A stretch of DNA of 64,000 nt, taken from NCBI GenBank assembly GCA_019321725.1, contig CM033111.1, positions 9,920,001 through 9,984,000 on the forward strand. The letters run 5' to 3'. Below, piece after piece: positions 340 to 63,000 of this stretch. The notes beneath the pieces are model-generated. The model had not been told where the DNA came from and ran no database searches. It saw nothing but the letters and a program-made list of their open reading frames with translations. A program made the translations under genes and the position numbers. The stretch's first letter is position 1; each line of letters starts with the position of its first letter. The stretch is from Paulownia fortunei. Taxonomy: Eukaryota; Streptophyta; Magnoliopsida; Lamiales; Paulowniaceae.

Positions 340-3300
340 GGAAACCTTCAAAAGACTATTCAGTAAAACATCGGAGAGGAAAATCAGAAACTTTGCGACT
401 CCAGTACATAAATACAAAAGATGTGAGGTTTGGCTCTATAAGAAGTCATAATTTTTTTGAACTTTTATGCTGATTTAATTTCCATCTACATCTTGGTTAT
501 TGTTGATTCATTGTATTGGTTCACGTCTCTACAAGTAAAAATATATGAGTGGTTCATTTTCTGCAGGGTAACAATAGGCACTTGGAATGTTGCTGGAAGA
601 CTTCCAAATGATAATCTTGAGATTGATGAATGGCTCTGTATGCAAGAGCCAGCAGATATGTACATCCTTGGGTAAGCAAAGCATCAAAGTTTTGAACTCT
701 TTTGGAAGATGGATAACTACTCAGTCATCATTTCAGCTACTAAGAAAACTGAGTTAAGTTCGTACATTAGTTTTTGAACTAGATTATGTTTGGGAAAGGG
801 AGATTGAAATAAAGGAGAAAAACAATCTTACAAAAATACTAAGAGCAGTAATTTTCTTCTCTCCGCTAGAATTTAGAAGGCATAAATTAATTTTTTTAGT
901 ATTCAAACATTTTGCAAATAACTCATATTAAGTTTAAACTTATTTTTCAAAATAATTTTTTTCAAAATAATTTTTTTTCTTCTAATTCTTCCTAAATTTT
1001 AAATTTTCTGTGAAAATAACCATAAGAATAGCTGTGCCATGTCTCTCCATGTGCTCTGCCTTTCGAGACTTCCTAATATATGATTCAACTGCCTAATCCT
1101 GCATCTGGAAAAACTCTTCTCTGAATTTCATCTTGTGATTGGACATAACTTTTTAGTATAAGATAACTTTGCACCCTAACTGCTTTTACTCTGTGATCTG
1201 ACAAGAATACTTAGGATTTCAGATATTGTCTTGGTGCATCTCTAGATTTATATAGGGACCTATGATTTTGTGTCACATTTCTATTCTAGAATAGCATTTC
1301 TTCATTTAAAGATGCAGCATGATGTCGTATTAAAAGTTTATTTTTTGATTCAGCATCACAAAATTGGGCTTACACTTCACTTTTCCCAAATTTTGAAGGG
1401 TTCGGAATGTGTATTTAGTTATTCTTAGAAGAATTTTCGTTGTCTTCTTTATATCATCAAACATTGCATTTAGCTGTCATTCAATTCTTGGTTTATTCAA
1501 TCTTTGTTTTAGAATACATGTTATTTTGGATAATTCCTTATTCTCGTTTTACAGTTTTCAAGAGGTGGTTCCTTTGAATGCTGGGAATGTACTTGGAGCA
1601 GAAAATAGAAGACCCATTCCCAAATGGGAGGCTATCATCCGCAAGACTTTGAATAAGTCACTGGAACCTGAAACTAGACATAAGAGCTACAGTGCACCCC
1701 CCTCTCCAGTTTTTAGGACTTCCTCTGCTTCTGATATATTGGCTGATGTGGCAGATACTCCTGTACTAGATATATTTGGAGAGGATTCCATAGGCACCAT
1801 CATCGGCAGTGATCCTGAGATAACAGGCAGTGGGAAGAGCTTCCAGCTAAAGAGGATATATGATATTGATTGGGACAGCAGATTGGACTGGCCTGAACAA
1901 TCTTTGGATGCAACACCTCAAGCTCTATCTTCTAGATCCAAATTACGAAGAGTACTAAGCAGTTCTGCAAAAATTGGTTCTAGCTGGATGGGTAACGGTC
2001 TTACCTCCAGCCCTCAAAATATTCCACTGAGTGGTTCTGGCTTAAAAAGAATGCACCGCAGCTCTGGAAACTTAGGATTGATATGTATGGACCATGAAGA
2101 TGACCTAGAAGTTCTAGATTATCTGTCCGATGAATTGGATGAGATCTCTGGAGAGGGAGAAGATTCTTTTGTAGAAATGACAGAGGTCAGACATGAAAAT
2201 CCACTTTCAAATGATGCAGTGAAGTCACGTCCAAGGTATGTTCGGATTGTGAGTAAGCAGATGGTTGGAATATATATATCAGTTTGGGTGCGCAGAAGGT
2301 TAAGGCGACACATAAACAACTTGAAAGTCTCTCAAGTTGGAATTGGGCTTATGGGCTACATGGGCAATAAGGTAATGTTTCCTTCTTCTTTTTCATTTTC
2401 TTATTTCTTTCTTCCCCCCTTACTTTTGTGGTTTTGGATCCACTGAAAGTAGCATTCATATGGATCTATGAATCTCCAAGTTTGTTATTTAGCCCAGTAA
2501 TCCAAAAACCTTCATCTTTATCATTAAACAACTGGCTGCAGGTTTTCATATCAGAAAGTTGAATTTTCCGTATTGGCCCTAAATTTTGATAATTAACTTC
2601 TTAGATCAAGATATTAGTTATTGTTGTATCCGGAGGTTCTGACCCATGCACAATTTACTTATGGCTTCTACACAGGGATCTGTTTCTGTTAGTATGTCTC
2701 TTTTCCAAAGTCGTCTATGCTTTGTTTGTTCTCATTTAACCTCTGGTGAAAAGTATGGGGCTGAGCAAAGGCGTAATTCTGATGTTCATGAGATTATAAG
2801 GCGGACTCATTTCTCATCCGTCTTTGACATTGATCAGCCACAGACAATTCCATCTCATGAGTAAGTGAACTATCTAGTTGAAGATTCTCTTTTTTACATG
2901 TTTTTCAGTTGAGTATTTGCTATTAGTGCTATTATTTAGGCATATGGACTGCTTCTCTGCCTATATTTGTATTCTCTGGATTGAAATATAAACCTTGTAG
3001 TTTGTTGAAATTGTCTTTCATCTGAACATTTGTCTACTGCATTTGTTACAATTTCAATGGTCTTTGCTGATTCTGCTTTGGTACAGAAATTTCAATCAAC
3101 CAACAATCAAGCGCATCTTTTAGCTATTCTGGCTTTTGTCTCTAGACGTAAATTGTCGTTAGAGGCTGACAGTTTCATTCTTTGTCTCAGTGGTATCAAT
3201 ACTAAAAGAGTTAATACTGGTCCATTAAGCTATGAAGCTTGTGGGTGCATATATGTTCAGTTTTCTACTGTTGGAATACCAACTCTTTTGCATTATCTTA

Positions 3301-10377: not shown

Positions 10378-12560
10378 TATAAATACTTTCATTTTGCCGC
10401 AAACAGCACATCAATATTAACATTAAATATTACATTTGGCTATAAAGGCCCTTGGTCGGAACGTCGGTCCCCTGCGCCCATTTCTCACTCACACCTTTCT
10501 CAGCATCAATGTACACCCGACTAAATTTTTGGAAACAAAATATTTGGGGCACATGTATCTTTCAAAAATAGACTTGCATCTACCTTCTAAACTTAACTTA
10601 ATCATTCATCGTGTTTGTTGATATAATATGCAAGTACAATGACAGTATAAGGATAATAAACACACAGAATTTAAAGCATAATCACACACGTATCATCAGT
10701 TAGGCACATAATTGCATGTATGGAACTAGGGTGGGGTTACTTATCTTTCGAGTTCTAAACTAACTAGAATTCTATCGGCTAAGTGGCCCTCCAACGCCAT
10801 CGTTCACAAATTCTTTGAAATACCTTGAAGTAAATCGTATAACACATTATTTCTTGTTTATCTAGGGTTGTAAAGATGCTAACTTTTGGTTTGCAGAGGG
10901 TGGAAAGGTGGTTTGTGCATGCAACTTGAGTGGAGAAGGAGAGAAGAAGAAAACTTCTTGCTTGTGGCCAATTTTTTGAAGTAGTAAAAGAATCGGATTT
11001 TTTTATCTTTAATTTTATTTTATATGATGGCTACAAAAATTAGGTCCAAACTAATATTAACCTCACATATTAATTTAGTTGTTTGGAAAGTCTAACTTTC
11101 CTAATAGATCAATTCCATATCATACCAAAATTCCATCTTCCTTCTATCTTTAATGACCGAAAATATGGACTCTAATTGGCTATTAATTTTTGACCCTTCT
11201 CTCCTCCAAATACATTGAACCTATCCTATAAATTCAATATTGATATCTTATATCAATTTTAAATAAGAAAAACTATATATATATATATATTTTAATTTAA
11301 TTCTTCTAATATTCCAAATGGGCTTCTACTAATGAACCATTTTTAAGTTGGGCTTGGACTTTAGCATGTACATTAATTAATTCAATTAATTAATAAGTCC
11401 AAGTTGATTTAATTGATCCAATCAATTAATTAACTCACTCCAAATTAGATTTTTAATTTTATTGGGTCCCATTAAATAATCATATTATTTAATTGAATAA
11501 TTAGCTCATCTAATTTAGATTAATTGAATTCTTAATTAATTAATCCAATTTATTAATTATATCTAACTAATCTTAAGTTAGGCAATTATATATGAAATGT
11601 AACACAGTTTTGATGAAATTAATAGGAAATGAGTACGAAATTAAGGTCATTACATTGAATATGATGGATGTTTCTCAGGAATATCATCTCATCATGCTTC
11701 ACCTGGCAGATCAGAAGAATGTTAGTTTTGTTACTTCAAAAGACACTTAATGTTATGTAGTTATGCCTTTTGGATTAAAAAATATCAGGGCCACTTACCA
11801 AAGGTTGGTGATAGAATGTTTAAGCAGCAGTTGGGGAGGAACAATGAGGTATATGTAGATGATATGTTGGTGAAGAGCAAAAAAATAGAATCTCATATCT
11901 CTGATCTGAAAAAGACCTTCGACGTATTAAGAAAGTATGGCATGAAATTGAATCCGTCCAAGTGTTCCTTCAGAGTAAAAGTAGGCAAGATCTTGGGATA
12001 CATGGTGACTGAAAGGGGAATCGAAGTCAACCCCGCAAAGGTCCGAGCTATTTTAGATATGAATCCTCCTTCAAAGATCAGAGATGTGCAGTGCCTTATA
12101 GTAAAAATTATAGCATTGAGTAGGTTCATATCTAGGTTAGTAGAGAGGAGTTTCCCCTTCTTTAGAATCTTGAGAAAGGGATATCAATTTGAATGGACAA
12201 CAGAATGTCAAAAGGCGTTTGATAAGCTGAAGGAGTTTCTATCTAAACTTCCATTACTCATAAAGCCAATTTTGAAAGAAGTGTTGTATGCCTACCTATT
12301 GGTAGGTGAGCGTGCTATCAATTTTGTCCTATTACTATAAGAATGAAATCATCATAAGCCAACTTATTATATGAGTAAATTATTTCATAGAGTTGAACAA
12401 AAGTATTTTGAGATAGAGAAATGAGGATTAACTCTGGTCCGGCAAGGAGGCTAAGACCTTATTTTTTATCGCACAAGGTGGTAGTCCACATAAACTTGTC
12501 ACTAAAGCACATTCTAGGAAAGCCTGATACTTTTAGGAAGAATGATCAAATGGGCTATAG
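9202..12560 (+). pseudogene. gypsy reverse transcriptase and RNase H, split by a solo LTR
   Basis: The N-terminal RT part is at 9202-9682 (DVFAWSVQDLTG, then a damaged fingers region with stops at 9481 and 9529). The frame resumes at 11660 exactly across the insertion at 9683-11654. The second part has MPFGLKN-like (11763-11785) and the catalytic YVDDMLVKSKK at about 11850, then GYMVTERGIEVNP. The RNase H start (FEWTTECQKAFDKLK ... LYAYLLVGERAI) runs to 12340 and continues broken to about 12560. Both catalytic Asp of the RT are present, but stops and frameshifts upstream prevent function. The reading across the insertion shows that the element was already in place when the LTR landed. Confidence 0.88.
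9683..11654. mobile_element. nested solo LTR with 5-bp target duplication
   Basis: 1,972 bp starting TGTAACAG and ending CATTACA, so TG..CA with TGTAA/TTACA inverted termini. It is flanked on both sides by TTGAA (9678-9682 and 11655-11659). Removing it and one TTGAA copy restores the RT frame. It has no coding potential, PBS or PPT, as expected of a solo LTR left by LTR-LTR recombination. The TGTAACA start and a stretch resembling 'ACAAGCTCAGTAAGTA' (about 10054) recall Tekay/Del chromovirus LTRs; that family name is inference. Contains an AT microsatellite at about 10347-10374. Orientation unresolved. Confidence 0.85.
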
Positions 12561-18606: not shown

Positions 18607-20185
18607 TCTTTAATGTTTAAATTGACAATTCAATTGTTGTCTCTATGTAAAGTAGGCAAAATATTCAAGTTCATTTAATGGGAGAAGATGATTGGTTAAA
18701 GTCATTTTTTTTTCTTTTGTTCCTTCTAGGCGATGGAAAAATAAATAAGTCTTGGATAGTTTATTTGTGAAAATATATCTCCTATGATTTGAATACACAT
18801 CAATTCTCGAGCGGTAGCAAAAGAAAAATTGGGATAGGATCCGAGACCATGCATAGCTCTGAACAGGAAATCGTGAAGTAGAGGGCTCGTGTATTCTTTT
18901 TTTCAGGTGTGTGATCCATCCCCATATACATTTATCTAGACAACCATATATGACAACCTATGGTATTGTAGATACTACACTTGGTGTACATACATTTGAT
19001 ATAAATCTATTATTAAAGTATCTTATTTTTTATAAAATAAGACACTTACCCTTCATCTATACACCAATTGAATCATACATCATGTGCAACATAAATATTA
19101 CCACAACCTATGGTGGTGTGGGATTAGTATCGTCAACATGTGGGATTAGTATCATCAGCAGTCATACAACTAAGACTTCTCTTTTGAGGATGTGATGTGT
19201 TAGTGTTCAATATCAATTGAACGAGTCACTTTAGCTAATGTACTAGTTATGTATGTATATAAAATGAAGGAAACCGTAGTCAGTTATAAGAAAAATAATC
19301 ATTTTGCATTATTATAAATTTGAGATTATACATATTTAAAATCATTGGCATATTCTTGAGATTGCCTCACAGCAAACTGTAAAGTGCGATAATTAGGTCG
19401 ATTTTTGGGCAACATAAATTCAAATATTTTTATCTTTATATAATTATGTAATACAACCTAATTCGAGTAGCAAAATTTAAAATTTAAAAATTCTAAAACA
19501 TTATAATAATGAATTCTTGGACTGAGTCCCATTAGGAGTTCGCACTTTGGCACTCTTTCTCAGTCCCACATCTGCAATGCCAATTGATTACCTGCTAATT
19601 TGGCAATCTGGGATGTCATTTTTTTTTCCAAATATTTCCTCTTTCCACATTAATGAATTAACTTATGGACAATGCTTACTCTAGAAGCCCCCCAAGGCCG
19701 GCATTCTATCTACTGACAAGTCCAACTACTTGTATAAATATGCTGCCAAAGTCTGCCGATTCTGGGGTTGCTCTGACAAGGACACATCTCTGATTCTCTT
19801 GTGACTGAGAATGTCTCAAGCAATGACAAAGTATCATAAACAGAAATTTTCATTTATTCTTAGTATTATCTTTTAACTGGCTAAGCACTCACTCGTCATC
19901 CTGATCCATGGTGCTTATGGGGCCACCCGTCTCCTAGTAGGATTTTTGAATTGTCGGGTATGTAAGAAAATAAAATTGAACCTCTGTCAATAGCTACTGC
20001 TTTTAACTTAATGATGATCCTAACAAAAATAACATCCATTTCCAATGTGGTAAAACTGTCCATCATACAATTTGGCAGTTTGCATCCCACAGTCACAGAT
20101 TCTCCTTTCGGCTGGCTTCACCATAAATCAGAGGTGCTCTAAGCCGGAATAGTTAATATCAAGGCACCAAAATCTCATAAACAAA
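18607..20185 (+). other. intergenic, upstream region of the dioxygenase gene
   Basis: Mostly AT-rich. A TATAAATA at 19733-19740 is the clearest TATA-like site, about 445 bp before the start codon, so it would imply a long leader or an upstream intron. A 94-codon frame at 18911-19195 resembles nothing I know. Confidence 0.4.
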
Positions 20186-22513
20186 ATGGCTTCAGCTAAA
20201 ATCCACAGCAGAGATAAGTGTATAAGAAGAGACGAAGGTCTAACATTAGATGAGAACACAAGTCAGAAACTGACTGTCATACAGGATAATATGGAAGCAG
20301 AGAATCTGAGCAGAAGGGAACTTGGAGGTTCTCTTCCTGTTGAGAATGTACAAGAACTAGCTTCCCACAACTTGAAAGATATCCCTAACAGATACATCCG
20401 GCCTGAGCTGGATAATAATGTCTCAGTCTACGAATCTTTACAGATCCCGGTAATTGACATGAGCAAGCTATGCAACGAGCAATCAGAAGGGTATGATCAG
20501 GAGTTGGCAAAACTTCATCAAGCAAGTAAACACTGGGGATTCTTTCAGGTACTTACATGATACTTTTTTGTATAATTATATGAATATTAGATCAGATCAT
20601 GTTCATCAACGGTTGACCATCAAAGGAAACATCCATTTTAACTTACCAAGTGTAATATGGTGGTGAAAAAAACAGCTGATCAATCATGGAGCAGCAGAAG
20701 TGATTGAAGAAATGAAGGTTGTGACTGAGGAGTTCTTTAAGCTTCCTCTGCAGGAGAAGATGAGCTGTGCTCAGATACCAAATAACATTGAAGGTTATGG
20801 CCAAGCATTTGTAGTGTCCGAAGATCAAAAGCTCGACTGGGGCGACATGCTCTTCCTCATGTCCCTCCCTGTTTCTCTAAGAAACATGAGATTCTGGCCC
20901 AGCACTCCACCTAACTTCAGGTATTCATCCTTTCCATTGAAAAGGTTTATCAGAACCAGTGAGAAATATACTCCAAATGTCCAATTTCAGCAACCTTTGA
21001 AAGGAAAGAATTGTGCGGTAACTAACAGCAGAAGTATTAGAGAAGAAGTATCACAATTACAATAGGGTCATGATCAGGGGAGATCAGTGGCAGAGCCAAG
21101 CACAATTGTGGTGGTTCAGAACCCATTCAAGATTTAAAATTTTGCTAATAAATAAAAAAATTACTTTATTATTAGGAGACTTAGGCAAAAGGGTCTTCCC
21201 TAAGGAAACTTGATTTTAAGAATGAGTACTGACCAAGTGGATGTGTGAGTTATATACGACGATATTGTAAAATGAAATGTTGGCATCATCATGTGTAAAT
21301 CAATAGCTCACGAACCCCACTTAGATAGTACCTAACCGGATGGCACCTCATGTCTATTATGGAAAATTTATCAGGTAGCTAGCTAGGATTCTGCCTGTTG
21401 TCTTCCCTAAAGACGTAAAATTCTCTGCAGATTTAACTTGTATGCTGTGTTTGAATGTTTCATGTCAGGCCAACTTTGGACAACTACTCCAAAGAGATGC
21501 AGAAAATTGCCCTCAGACTTTTGACTTGGATGGCCATAAACCTTGGGATTGAGCCACATAAACTCACCTCTGCATATGAAGATTGTAATCAAGGAATAAG
21601 AATGAATTACTACCCACCTTGTGTACATGCAGACAAGGTGATTGGGCTCACTCCACACTCTGATGCAACTGGCCTTACTCTCCTGGTTCAGATCAATGAA
21701 GTGCAAGGCTTGCAAATCAGGAAAGATGGCAAATGGGTACCCGTTGAACCCATTTCTGGTGCAATCATAGTTAATGTTGGTGACATCTTGGAGGTATTGG
21801 ATTGTCTGTGCTCTCAAATACACTTTATTTTAACAAATGAAACAAAATCTAGATCACCCCTTAATCTATGTGAGGTAATGAATCGATATCCATTAACAAT
21901 GAATCAATAGTTATCAATTTTTTTAATTTGAACTTTATTTGAAAATTGTTACAAGTTTAAAACCAAGCCTCAGCCCTCAAATTTGATATTTGTGAAAATT
22001 ATAGACTTAGTTAATGTAGTACATGAACTAAGTATAATTCAAATCAGGCTTACTTTGGCTTACCCCTCAGACTTTGTTTGATTTAGGTTCAGCTTAAGCT
22101 TCAATAGAACCAGACTTGCTCTTTGTCAACTTCATCAAAGCTGCAACATAGTTTCACCCAAAGAACTAGATGAAGTGATAAAATTGCTCTTTGTCAAATG
22201 ATCTTACTACCTTCATTTGCTTTATACTCTTTGATTATGATCATATTTATGTGGGGTTTTGTTGCAGATAATGAGCAATGGTGAATACAGTAGCATCGAA
22301 CACAGAGCTGTTGTCAACTTTGAGAAGGAAAGACTCTCAATGGCTGCATTTCACAGTCCAAATATGACAACAAATATAGGGCCATTGCCAGATCTTGTTA
22401 AAACAAGTGGTGAAAAGTACAAGAAATTTAGCTATCAAGAATATTTAAGGTTAGTCATTGCTAGCAAACTTGATGGCAAAAGCTTATTGGATGATATGAA
22501 AATTACGCATTAA
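20186..22513 (+). CDS. 2-oxoglutarate/Fe(II)-dependent dioxygenase, SRG1-like, complete
   Basis: Soluble oxygenase using Fe(II), 2-oxoglutarate and O2. The substrate cannot be read; relatives hydroxylate or demethylate specialised metabolites. Exons 20186-20548, 20676-20920, 21469-21793, 22268-22513 (TAA), all GT..AG, give 392 residues. N-terminal DIOX_N region: GGSLPVENVQELA, IPVIDMSKL, HWGFFQ/LINHG. Core: NYYPPC (249-254), Fe ligands H266, D268 (PHSDATGLT) and H323 (SIEHRAV), and 2OG-binding R333-x-S335. Family length is usually about 350-370; the extra 35 N-terminal residues disappear if translation starts at Met36 (20291). The first ATG sits in a good plant context (AAAATGGC), so it is preferred. 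No damage seen. Confidence 0.93.
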
Positions 22514-23494
22514 ACGATTGTACCATGGGAAGATAATAGTTTCAGAATTGCCCCCACCCCTTTCTACAAATATATTGAAATTTTAAATTGTTTTAGATTT
22601 ATCCCGATACAAGGAGTAAGATATAAGCATTTTTAGGTCAACTTAGAGAGAATTATGTATTCCATTTTTATTATGTCTTCCAAAAACTATGCATGCAATT
22701 TGGAAAAAATACAACACATCCACAAAACAATATTTTTGAAAGGAGTTCTTCCAAGTTAATAATATTATTAAATTACTACATTAAGCAGTGAATATTGAAA
22801 AAAAAATTTAAAAATTAAATTTTATTTAAAACATTTCCAAAAAAATAAATAATAATAGGAAAAAAATTGGGATAGATGGAATAAGAAAAAAATGAATTGC
22901 AAAAACCCCATAATATAGGTAAATTTTCTTAAGAAAATAAAATAACATCCACTCCCATACTATCTGACATAAAATGAAGTTCAAAATCATTTTAACTATA
23001 ACACATTATTATTTAATTAAGTATAACTTTCTCCGATATATCTTCTACTTTCTAAATATCAGCTTACTTTTTACCATAAATCAAAATTAGAAGAAAAACT
23101 ATATTGCTTTAATCACTCCAACAAAAACCACGTTGCAGTTGTTTAGCAACCCACACAAACAGACCCCAAAAAAATAAAATAAAATATAAAATTACAGAAC
23201 CAAAAATATAAACAAGATGTATGTGAAACCAAGAAATACATATCATGTGACGCGACATTCTCTTAAGTTATATTGAAAAATCACAACTTTAAAAACTTTT
23301 AAAAGAAGCTGTGATAGACTTATAGATTTGGTAAAACGAATAACATACTTGAATGGATAGTTAATTGAATTTAAAAACTAAACAATTAAAGAAAAATCCA
23401 GAAAAATCATTATAGCCAAACTCTTACAATGAAAATCTGCTTCGATTTGGGAAGGAAGAAAAACAGAAAGAACAAAAAAGATAGAAAATGAAGT
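22514..23494. other. AT-rich intergenic
   Basis: Holds the 3' UTR of the dioxygenase gene and, from about 23494 downward on the - strand, the 3' end of the snoRNA transcript. No further snoRNA with C/D boxes and a closing stem was found here. Confidence 0.4.
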
Positions 23495-23583
23495 GGGGCA
23501 TCAGGTCTCCAAGGTGAATTTAGCATCAAGATTAAATTCAGACGCAAATTACCCATTTTCACATCAGATTCATCCTTTGCCCC
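23495..23583 (-). ncRNA. C/D box snoRNA with two rRNA guides (U16/snR87-type D' guide)
   Basis: Closed by a six-pair terminal stem: GGGGCA (23583-23578) with TGCCCC (23500-23495). C box GGATGA (23575-23570, first base off consensus), D' CTGA (23541-23538), C' TTGATGC (23529-23523), D CTGA (23504-23501). The 13 nt before D' (complement of 23543-23555) pair with 18S rRNA CGCAAATTACCCA, which by the D+5 rule puts the methyl on the first A. I recall that as the target of U16 in animals and plants and of snR87 in yeast. The 14 nt before D (complement of 23505-23518) pair with GTCTCCAAGGTGAA, which I recall from 25S rRNA near the U24 target. rRNA matches are from memory. Confidence 0.8.
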
Positions 23584-23680
23584 AAACCCATTCATAGATA
23601 CAAAATCAAACCCATTTACTTTTTAGGATACACTTTATATTATGATAACATAAATAAACATATATGTATATATATGTGTG

Positions 23681-23713
<33 letters not shown>

Positions 23714-23722
23714 GGAGCAAAA

Positions 23723-23807
23723 GCGATCAGAACCTGTCGGGATTCATTATTAACATCACACTTAATCAGTGGATTGACAGACTTTATGAATTTCTTCGTC
23801 ACCTCGC
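23723..23807 (-). ncRNA. C/D box snoRNA (18S guide; same target as yeast snR55)
   Basis: Terminal stem GCGA (23807-23804) with TCGC (23726-23723). C box GTGACGA (23802-23796, TGACGA variant), D' CTGA (23769-23766), C' GTGATGT (23759-23753), D CTGA (23730-23727). The 13 nt ahead of D' (complement of 23771-23783) pair with GGATTGACAGACT of 18S rRNA. The fifth base from D' pairs with the first U of GAUUG, which I recall as the site of yeast snR55 and human SNORD110. The stretch before D (complement of 23731-23744) has no target I recognise. Confidence 0.78.
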
Positions 23808-23882
23808 AGAAATCATAGATATTGAGGCACCAAAAATCCTAAAAAAAGTATATATATAATAAAAATACAGTGTAAATGGGAA

Positions 23883-23966
23883 AGCTCAGAACTTCTTAGA
23901 GGGATTGAGTGCCGTCACCGACGGCCAGCGTCTCCGGCTCACAAAATTCTAATATTCATCACCGCT
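23883..23966 (-). ncRNA. C/D box snoRNA (18S guide, U61-like)
   Basis: C box TGATGA (23961-23956), D box CTGA (23889-23886), flanked by a short AGC/GCT stem. A GGTGACG in the middle could be C'. Directly upstream of D (two nt spacer) the complement of 23892-23904 pairs with CTTCTTAGAGGGA, a conserved 18S stretch. The D+5 rule marks the U after CU. This is the region I recall for the U61 snoRNA. First snoRNA after the promoter. Confidence 0.8.
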
Positions 23967-24075
23967 AATTAAATTAATTATATTAAACAAAACCAAACAA
24001 AATATTTGAAAAGAAGAGATCTGGAAATTGAACTGCGGAGGAGATGGAATGAGCCAAAGGAGTGGGGAAAGAGAG

Positions 24076-24165
24076 AATTTATAGCGTTTGTGGAATGGTC
24101 GAAAGAAACCCTAGAGACGTTGAAATGGGCAGAGTCGTGTGGTGACGGCGCCCTAAAACCCTAAC
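24076..24165 (-). promoter_or_regulatory. Pol II promoter of the snoRNA cluster: TATA and telo-boxes
   Basis: On the - strand: TATAAATT (24083-24076), telo-box TAGGGTTT (24113-24106), a second telo-box TTAGGGTTTT (24164-24155) and TGGGC at 24125-24129 (+ strand), a partial site II. The telo-box/site II combination is typical of plant snoRNA and ribosomal protein genes. The TATA lies about 110 bp ahead of the first snoRNA. Confidence 0.7.
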
Positions 24166-24169
24166 TATT

Positions 24170-25600
24170 ATACGTGAGGAATGCTATGGGTTCTAAGGTG
24201 CTGTTTGGCAACACCTAAATCCGGAATTTTTTTCTATTTATGCAATTTTTTTATTTTATTTTATTTTTTGTGATAGGGATACATCCGGATTAACTGGTTA
24301 AAATTATTAAAAAAATATCTAAGTTCCTATATTTTTAAGATACTTTAGAGTTTATAAAATATCAGACTTATTTTAAAAATAAATTGATGAAGTATTTTGA
24401 AAAAATAAGACATGGAGTTTTAAAATATTAGTTGTGATAATTTTATAATTAAAATTATTAAAATTGAAAAAATTTGTCAAAATAAGATCTTATTTTAAAA
24501 ATAAGTTATGGTAAAAATACTTTTTTTTAAAATTTATAAGTTTTCAAATCACTTTTTTTTTAAGAGGAATTATTAAACTCCAAAAAATTATGACATTAAT
24601 ACAAAAATTATTTGAATATGAAAATAAAACCATGATCTTTATCCTAAAAATAATAGTATTTTCACGTACTAATAAATAGTTATATTGTTGTGCATAAATT
24701 TCAATTCATTTCATATATTCTACTTGTTCAATTAATTTCATTTAGGTGGGATGGTTGTTGTTCTTATTTTTTATCTTAATGATCGGTTGTCGTAGGCCTA
24801 CCAAATTTAAACATTACTCTTTAATAAATTTTTAATGAGTATAGTGCAAGTAAGAGTCGATCCACGAGGTGTGTTGTGTAGAGAGTGAGTGAATATAAAT
24901 GAATGTAGAGAGTGAGTGAATGTGAAAATTGATGTGTGTGTTGAGAGGATAGTATGTATTTATAAAGTGTGAGATGATGTTGTGATTTGTTATAAAGTAT
25001 CTAAGGTGTGTTGTGTGCTTGGTGTAAAGTGTTTAAGGTGTGTTATGTGTTGGGTGTAAAATGTATGAGGTATGTTGTGTGATATATTAAATGTATCTAG
25101 TGTATACATATCACAAACATGTGCTAAAATGTGTAAAGAGTTGTCATTCCAAGCAAATGAATCTATTTTCCTACATGGATAGCGCCTAGGCGCTATAATA
25201 TAGCACCTAGGTGCCATATTTGTCGAAGAGAACAGTAAGTACGATATTTATCCCATTTCAACTAATTTTTGACTTCTTTCTAGAATGAATTAGATTTTGG
25301 TATCTTCATAACAATTGTAGCCCTATTGGTTAGTTTTCTGTAGCAACTTGAATCAGATCAATATCACATTTATAGATAAATTTATGCTAAAAATACAAAA
25401 ATTGTTATATTTGAAAGTTTCAGTGCATGTTTGACTTTTTAACTGAATTTTGCTCTTTGAAATCAATTGAATTGGGAAATGTTTCCAACATATTATAAAC
25501 TCTCTAGAAAAAAATACCAAATATTTTTACAACTTATAACAAGTTCTGAAAAGCTTGTAAACTCAGCTAAACACATTTAAGACGAGTCTGTACCAACTGT
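24170..25600. other. AT-rich intergenic with degenerate repeats
   Basis: About 24990-25085 carries three degenerate copies of a unit near 32 bp around 'TAAGGTGTGTTGTGTG'. GAGAGTGAGTGAAT occurs twice at about 24878 and 24910. No gene found. Confidence 0.5.
25180..25216. repeat. two adjacent palindromes
   Basis: TAGCGCCTAGGCGCTA (25180-25195) is a perfect 16-bp palindrome. It is followed after 5 bp by TAGCACCTAGGTGCCA (25201-25216), the same pattern with one mismatched pair at the ends. Confidence 0.85.
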
Positions 25601-57000: not shown

Positions 57001-60000
57001 ACAATTGCTTGAATTAAATCCCTTTGTGCTTTAGCTAGTTTTATTTGTCCGACATATATCAGCCACAGATTCACATATTCCCTTATTTGTAACTGGCTTT
57101 GATAAATTTTTCGTGCTACTATCCCAATAAATATTGAATTTAAGCTTTATATGTGATATCACCTGTATATTAAGAGTTGCACATTCATCGCCAGTTACCA
57201 TACAACTCTTATTAGGACCAACAATTAAGTCCCAAAAGGAAGATATGAAAGCAAAGAGGTCGAGAGAAATGTTGATACTTGACGCTTTATTAGTCTCTAA
57301 GTTTTCATGTGGAAATTGTGCCATAATTAGGATCTATTATAATTAGAATTAGTTTAAGAATTCAGGTAAGTTCACATTCTGTCTAGGCTCTGAGCACTAT
57401 TTCAGTTCTTTTGAAATGTTTCCTTTCGTGTGCCAGGTCAATCACGGCAGTTAAGATATTCTATGTTCTAAATGTTCACATTCATTTTTCTTTAAATTCA
57501 GATAGAACCTCATTACTCTGAAAAGAATATAGACAAAATGAATGAGAAGTAATGACAAGTATGACCTATGGCTACAGCTTCCTTGCATCATCAATAGGAA
57601 AAGCGCACACATTAGCATTTCACAATAAAACACATTGATCCTAACCAGATTTCTAAACATTGACACTAGCATTTCACGATAAAACACATTGATCCCAACC
57701 AAATTTCTAAACATTAACTGGCAGACAAAGAAAAAAGATCGTTGGTACAACAGTTAGCATGGTGCTTAATGGTTTAATTAACAGATTATATGCTTGATTA
57801 CACCTTCAAAGATCATCGAGCATGAAAATAAAAATTTTAGGTGATAACAGAGTATATTTTGTGCATTCTTAAGAAGATTACTCTATTGTAATCAGATATG
57901 GTTTTACTTACCTGCCGTATCAATCATGTCATCCACCATAACTGCAACTTTTCCTTTTACGTCACCAATCAGATTCATTACCTGCAAATGAACAAAAAGT
58001 TGTGGAACCAAGAAATGAAAAACAAATCATAACAAGGATTGAGAAAAGAGTAATGTAGAGAAAGCTTTTCACAATTATCAGAAAACATACTAGATGGATT
58101 AGATTTGTCAGTGAATTTTCAAAATGATTATTGGTGATGTTCACAACATAAATAGTTAAAGTACATTAGAAAGGTGATTTATGCAACCATCAATGGACCC
58201 TTCTAAAGGGCATGATTTTCAGTTTTTCAGTAAATAAAGTCTGATTTCACCATGCTTCTAGTAGCAGCAAAAGGCGTAGCACTTTTTAATGAGTGTATGC
58301 CATGGTGATTAAAGAGAAATTCCCTATTGGTGGTTCAAGTCTGTGACTTAGCCATTGTAATGCATTATGGACATATTTGTGAATGCTTTTTCCTGTTCAA
58401 GAAGTGCTAACTTGTAAACAAAGCAGGAGACGTGCTGAAATTGTAAAATTTGTGCATGTTTGTAAAAGCTGCTAAAAGCTAGAAGTTGTATATGGATGTT
58501 TGCAGATTAAGCTGGTAAATTAGTTGAAGTGGTTTTTGGTTATGTAAATGTTCTAATTATCCTTGAAACCTAAAAAATAATTTATTATGTACATTTATAT
58601 TATGCAATTTAAAAAGTTTGCATTATTTATTAATTTTATAATTATCATATTTTATTTAGTTCTGCTACAAATAAAATAAATTGCTTCTTGTTGTTAGCCT
58701 TTAACTGTTATTTAAATTAGATTAACTAATGACTAATTATTTATCACAATTAAATTAATATTTGTTGGAGGATATAGGCTAATTTTAGTAGGTGTATTAA
58801 TTATATGATTACCTAATTTATTTCTTGATTTCCTGGGATATGATTATATTTTCCTTGATTCTGTTTTGATTGTATATCAGCCTATAAAGGTCAGGCTCCT
58901 CTATATTGTTATGTCAATGAAAAATAATTCCCAATTTCTCCGATATGGTATCAAAGCACTAGGTGCTCTTTCTGGGAAAGAATTATTTTCATCACCTATA
59001 GTGCGAGATGTCAGAAGTTACGTAAATTAGTTGTCAGTCAAAGGAGTCTACAATCTAACAGGTTCCTGGAGACCTACAGAACATTCAAGCTGCGTATAGG
59101 CTGAATGGAACAGACTATTTAAAGTGGTCTCAACTTGTTCGAACCTTTCTGAAAGGAAAAGGCGAACTCAACCATCTTCTAGGAATAAGGCCTAAGGAAG
59201 GAGACCCCAAGTTTGTTGCATGGGACGAAGAAGACTCAATGGTTATGTCGTGGCTTTGGAATGCTATGGTACCTGAGATATGTGATACTGTCATGCTTTT
59301 TACAACTGCTCGAGAGATATGGGAAGCAATCAGGCAAACCTATTCAAAGAAAGATGATGCAGCCCAGGTGTACGAGATCAAAGTGAAGCTAGCAGCTATG
59401 AAACAAGGGAATAAAACCGTAACAGAATATGCTAACACTCTAAAAAATTTGTGGTACGAGTTGGACTATTAGCAAGTTCTCGAGATGAAAAAAATGAGGA
59501 TGTTGCCTTATTGAAGGCTTTCATAGAAAAGGACCGAATATATGATTTCTTAACAGGTCTCAATCCAGAATTTGATAGTGTGAGTCCAAATTTTAAGGAA
59601 AGGGTTGTCCTCTCTAAATGAAGCAATTGCAACTATTTGCGAAGAAAGCAGGAGAAGAGTCATGTTGGATTTGCAACCACTGGGAGGATCGACACTACTT
59701 ACAACCGCTTCCAGTAAACAAGCTTCGGAGAAGACTTCATTGGCTACCACAGATAACAAGAAGTCTGACACAAAAAAGATGAATAAAGAAAGTTTGAAAT
59801 GCGACTATTGCCACAAACCAGATCATACAATAGAAACCTGCTACAAGTTGCATGGGAGGCCACAAAACGTGAATCAGTCAAATCAGAATTTTAGAAGAAG
59901 AGGCTGGCACCAAAAGGGACAAGCCCACATTGCACAAATTGGCACCAATAATGCTAGTCATCAACTGAATTCTAGCAACAGAGAGTTTAATAAAGAAGAC

Positions 60001-63000
60001 CTTGATCGCCTTCGATCCCTTCTAGATTTACTCGAAAAAAGTTCAGGTGTCTGTTCAATGGCACTTTTGGGTATGTGTTCTGGTTCTCATGCTTTTAGTG
60101 TCTCAAATGATGTTCAAGTCTACCCTCATTTCTGGATTGTTGATTCTGGAGCAACCGACCACATGACCAATTCATCCCTTTTTTTTTTCTTCTTACAGAC
60201 CATGCGCTAGTAATATAAAGATTACTATAACAGATGGGAATTTAGTCACAATTACAAGTCTGGGGGACATATGCTTAGGGCCTTCTTTGTTCTAAAAAAT
60301 GTCCTCCATGTGCCTAAATTGACAACCAATCTTATATCTGTCAAACAAATCACTAAGGATATGAACTGCAATCTCATTTTCTCAAACAATTCATGTGTGT
60401 TTCAGGACCGAGTTTCGGGGAAGACGATTGGGCATGCTGAAGAAAAGGATGGCCTCTACTATCTCGAGCTTGTGAATGGAAAAGTAAATATTGGAGTTGG
60501 TTTCATCTATTCTTCTATCAGATTCCTCCACAAATAAAGATAAAATTTTCCAACATCATTTACAGCTTGGTCATCATTCCTTTAGAACTCTCAGTCTTAT
60601 GTTTCCTTCTTTGTTTAAAAATGTTGATTTGAAACAACTTCATTGTGATATTTGTGAATTAGCCAAACACAAACGTGTTTCTTTTACTTTGAGCAATAAT
60701 AAATCATTGGTTCCTTTTTATTTAATACACAATGATGTTTGGGGTCTCTCACGAGTTGCTAATCATTCTGGGGCACGTTGGTTTGTCATTTTTATAGATG
60801 ATTGTATGTGGGTCACTTGGACTTTTCTCATTAAGCAAAAATCTGATGTAGCCAATATCTTCCCAATTTTTCACAACATAATAAAATCACAATTTGGGGT
60901 GAAAATTAAAAGGGTGAAGATAGACAATGGGAGAGAGTATTTGAATCAAATTTTATCACCATATCTCAACCAAGAGGGAATAGTTCATGAATCCTCATGC
61001 ACTAACACACCCCAACAAAACAGTGTGGCTGAAAGAAAAAAATGGACATCTTCTCGAAACTACCCGTGCTCTTCTTTTCCAAAGACAAGTTCTAAAATAT
61101 TTTTGAGGGGAAGCCGTTCTTACAGCCACATATCTTATCAACCAGTTACTCACTAAAGTCTTAGATTTTAAAAGTCCCTAGAAAACGTCATTTTTCAGAT
61201 TTCCTTATCCCAAACAAGTTACCTCCTCGAGTATTTGGGTGCGTTGTCTTTGCTCATATTCATGCTCACAATCAAAGCAAATTTGATCCCCGAGCATTAA
61301 GATGTATGTTTATAGGGTACTCTTCAACAAAAAAAGGCTACAAATGTTATCATCAGCCTACTCGAAAAACATACATTTCAACTGATGTCACATTTGTTGA
61401 GCATGAGAGTTTCTTTCATCATCCTTCTCCTTAGGAGGAGACAACAAGTGATGAAAAGGATGATGTTGATGTTCTCAATTTTATGCCCGAATTGTCGCTA
61501 TCATCATTGAGTCCAAGTCCTACAACCATTCCTACATCAACTTCACTTCCAAAATCAGATCCCAATTTTGTTCTTCCCTCACTTCAAGATCCAGTTGTAA
61601 TATCTCCTGAACCTCAACCAAAATCATCTCCTAAAACTCCATTACCATCACCTAATCCAGTAATCGTTAAACCATTTCAGGTATATTCAAGAAAGAACAG
61701 ATGTAAGACTAATCAGATGCAGGCCCAAAAGTTAGAACCTATGCTCAGGAAAGAAACCACTCAAGAGAAAGATACAGCTGAGGTAAACAATCCTACTCTT
61801 ATCTTTGATACAAGTGAGTTAGAACTACCTATTGTTGTTTGTAAAGGTACCCGGAGTTGTACACAACACCCACGCTCTCATTTTATCTCCTTTGAAAAAT
61901 TATTTCCCTCACATAAAGCATTCCTTACTCACCTAAACTCAACAACTATTCCTAAAACATTATCTACGGCATTAAATAGCAAAGAATGGAAACAGGCTAT
62001 GAAAGTTGAAATGGACGCACTTATTAGGAGATGATTGAATTGCTAAACGGAAGAAGGCCAGTGGGATGCAAATGGATGTTTTCTGTAAAATATAATGCAG
62101 ATGGATCTCTTGAGAGGTATAAGGCAAGGCTAGTAGCGAAAGGTTATACTCAGACCTTCGATGTTGACTATCAAGAAATTAACTCCCAAAGAAAAACCTA
62201 CCTAATAACAACCCACATGCTTCCTTTCCTCCCTACTGCCCACCTCCATTCTTTCACACCCATACTCCTCTAATGATGGAAGTACAGACAAATGTCGCTC
62301 ATATCTACTTGACAGTAGGATTTCATCACTTTTACAATCTTCTTTTTCTTCCAAATTGTTTCCTATTCATTTTGTTATTGTTTAATTCCCAAAATTTACA
62401 TTCTGCTTGCCTCTATTGGAATTTTTTCCTGTCCAGCTAAGACTCCAAAGGAAAACTACATTATGGGTTGAAGGCACAAGGCAGAACAGATTAAGGACAC
62501 ATTTGCAAACACTTGTGCTTTTGAAGAAGTGCTAACTTCAACTAAAAGCTGAAGAAGTGCTGAAAGTGTAAAAGTTGTGCATGTTTGCGAAAACTGTTGA
62601 AAAGTACTAGAGTCTTTAATGTTTGACAATAAGCTGGTAAAGAGGTAAAGTAGTTGAAATGGTTTTTGGTTGTGTAAATGTCCAACAGAAGGTCAACATA
62701 TATGGTTGAGGGTCCTAATGCTGACTAGAGCGATATCCTAAACCATGTAAGAGACTAGAACTGATGGCATTTCTTAAGAATAACTAAATATAGTTGTTCG
62801 CATCTCACCTCTTCCTTACAATTATCCTCTGCATTCCAATTAGATTCACACCTACCATTCTCTAAAAAGCTTGCTTACCTTGTCTTGAATTTTTTGATAA
62901 TGATGAGAAAATCACATTTTAGGTTTTGACACCATGAATGGTCAGTATCACTGGAAGACTATGACCACTGGTCACATTAAAACGACAAAATTTCAGGGCA

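Follow-up and report, generated by a model that had tools for sequence, protein, structure and literature searches.

A probable three-unit C/D snoRNA gene encoding snoU61, snoR14 and snoZ101 in Paulownia fortunei

Introduction

A cluster of the small nucleolar RNAs (snoRNAs) U61 and snoR14 is known from rice (cluster 49) and Arabidopsis, the Arabidopsis counterpart of the rice cluster being written 'U61-U14.1-U56' (PMC5122169). Promoters of polycistronic snoRNA genes in plants are reported to be strongly enriched for a Telo-box and Site II, placed upstream of the TATA box, and a rice snoRNA locus that has Site II and TATA yet lacks a Telo-box has also been described (PMC4660826). In barley, U61 and snoR14 have been quantified by quantitative PCR (PMC4368757), and both families are therefore expressed in another plant. 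Here we describe a minus-strand locus of Paulownia fortunei in which U61 and snoR14 are likewise neighbours, in the order in which the known cluster is named, followed by snoZ101. The locus lies within a window of 64,000 nt (GCA_019321725.1, contig CM033111.1, positions 9,920,001-9,984,000, forward strand), and coordinates below are those of the window. It is very probably an ordinary plant gene, with its own promoter and a single precursor holding three guides for ribosomal RNA (rRNA) methylation.

Results and discussion

A scan of the whole window against Rfam, using the curators' cut-offs (snoU61, 55 bits; snoR14, 40 bits; snoZ101, 44 bits), returned three matches and no others, all end to end, on the minus strand and confined to 475 nt:

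23882..23967, minus strand: snoU61 box C/D snoRNA, RF01170, 60.7 bits
23723..23807, minus strand: snoR14 box C/D snoRNA, RF01280, 87.2 bits
23493..23585, minus strand: snoZ101 box C/D snoRNA, RF00358, 83.5 bits

All three snoRNAs are thus members of known C/D families, scoring over the cut-offs, and each unit carries a box C (RUGAUGA) and a box D (CUGA). The units are separated by spacers of 74 and 137 nt, forming a close group on one strand. The original prediction, of three C/D units in a row on the minus strand, was correct in its coordinates and its reading; its implied novelty did not hold, as all three families are known and the U61 and snoR14 cluster has already been published. A search of the species' own genome found the snoU61 and snoR14 units to be the sole matches for their families. 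A decayed, silent locus, with the active genes at other sites, is very improbable.

The guides were compared with an rRNA set from the same genome (the C10 18S and the rRNA strands of loci L043 and L045), scoring each as the longest perfect rRNA match ending 0-2 nt ahead of a CTGA word. The predicted guide runs beside CTGA were borne out: at 0-2 nt from the box, five guides form 11-14 perfect pairs, where at least 10 are required, two of the five being matched in one rRNA copy only:

23892..23904, minus strand: U61 guide before box D (CTGA 23886-23889), 13 Watson-Crick pairs to 18S
23771..23783, minus strand: snoR14 guide before box D' (CTGA 23766-23769), 13 pairs to 18S
23732..23742, minus strand: snoR14 guide before box D (CTGA 23727-23730), 11 pairs to the 25S of the C20 copy
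23543..23555, minus strand: element listed inside the snoZ101 unit, one rRNA copy only
23505..23518, minus strand: element listed inside the snoZ101 unit, from the rRNA comparison and the Arabidopsis table

By the +5 rule, the selected rRNA base pairs with the guide base five positions ahead of box D or D'. The U61 guide selects U1383 of the C10 18S copy (U1384 in Arabidopsis) and the snoR14 D' guide U1234 of the same copy (U1235 in Arabidopsis), while the base selected by the snoR14 D guide, in one rRNA copy only, lies ~800 nt from the 25S start (U803 in Arabidopsis). snoZ101 is a double guide, and both of its targets are those given in the Arabidopsis table to SnoR15, which shares them with U16 and U55, respectively. 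The table lists one site for U61, two for SnoR14 and two for SnoR15, and the +5 bases of the five guides (U, U, U, A and C) are the same as those in the table. The selected bases are equivalent to rRNA sites listed as methylated in Arabidopsis, and the guides match the species' own rRNA copies at these sites.

The rRNA copies of the assembly (loci L009-L020 and L026-L047) look scattered and degraded. Fragments of 18S and 25S rRNA matched the assembly over their full length with best identities of 97% for 18S and 93% for 25S, and no intact rDNA array was found among the copies so matched.

Could the boxes and guides resemble snoRNAs by chance? Single elements are about as frequent in the window as expected, the telo-box core occurring four times against an expected 3.04, and this core is not rare by itself; its weight comes from its position. 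The Rfam E-values of the three units (5e-17, 4e-15 and 1.2e-11) nevertheless refute chance resemblance, whose probability we regard as negligible, and the guide control points the same way. Five of the six CTGA words within the units score 11-14, and these five are among the 18 of the window's 412 CTGA words to score at least 11. In 200 dinucleotide shuffles of the rRNA targets, the best score over all boxes reached 11 in 14 shuffles, 12 in one and 13 in none, a control made harsher by the non-rRNA inserts carried by the fetched rRNA copies in the target set.

Ahead of the U61 unit lie the following promoter-like motifs, in agreement with the predicted telo-box and TATA arrangement:

24156..24164, minus strand: telo-box TTAGGGTTT, exact match
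24156..24163, minus strand: first telo-box core TAGGGTTT, exact match
24106..24113, minus strand: second telo-box core TAGGGTTT, exact match
24078..24083, minus strand: TATAAA, a putative TATA box from its position

Read along the minus strand from 24164 to 23493, the order is thus two telo-box cores, TATA box, U61, snoR14 and snoZ101, with the U61 unit starting 116 nt after the TATA box. As in plant TeloSII snoRNA genes, a Telo-box (AAACCCTA) and a TATA box precede the cluster; in contrast to those genes (PMC4660826), the locus has no exact Site II (TGGGCY) on either strand of 23480-24600. A TGCCCA, one base off Site II, is situated between the two telo-boxes. The strict TeloSII label does not apply, and Site II is unnecessary for the status of a snoRNA cluster.

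The missing Site II would suit real snoRNAs hosted by a longer transcript, within one of its introns or non-coding exons, without a promoter of their own. This arrangement is unlikely, given the two telo-box cores and the TATA box 116-197 nt ahead of U61. Among minus-strand frames that run from stop to stop and overlap 23400-24300, the longest spans 70 codons, and no frame of at least 120 codons occurs on either strand at 22-48 kb, although short exons could still be accommodated there.

The layout instead suggests an independent gene, co-transcribed from the telo-box/TATA promoter. In the model we propose, polymerase II would read the minus strand from this promoter into a single precursor carrying snoU61, snoR14 and snoZ101, and cleavage and trimming of this precursor would release the three C/D snoRNAs. 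Each snoRNA would join a fibrillarin ribonucleoprotein and presumably direct 2'-O-methylation of the rRNA nucleotide that the +5 rule selects for its D or D' guide. If U61 and snoR14 come from nowhere else in the genome, deleting this locus would probe three to five rRNA methylation sites at once; otherwise, a known plant cluster gains one species. A caller of protein genes only would leave the locus blank, and its annotation is therefore useful.

The nearest protein gene noticed is a 2OG-Fe(II) dioxygenase gene, present in pieces on the opposite strand. It is listed here with other features noticed in the window:

20153-21910, plus strand: dioxygenase gene pieces (Pfam DIOX_N, 2OG-FeII_Oxy)
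11726-12340, plus strand: retrotransposon fragment, reverse transcriptase piece
59059-61156, plus strand: retrotransposon fragment, copia-type gag and integrase piece, the integrase match being under the curated cut-off
1397-2446, plus strand: frame with an Exo_endo_phos2 (endonuclease/exonuclease/phosphatase) match close to its end
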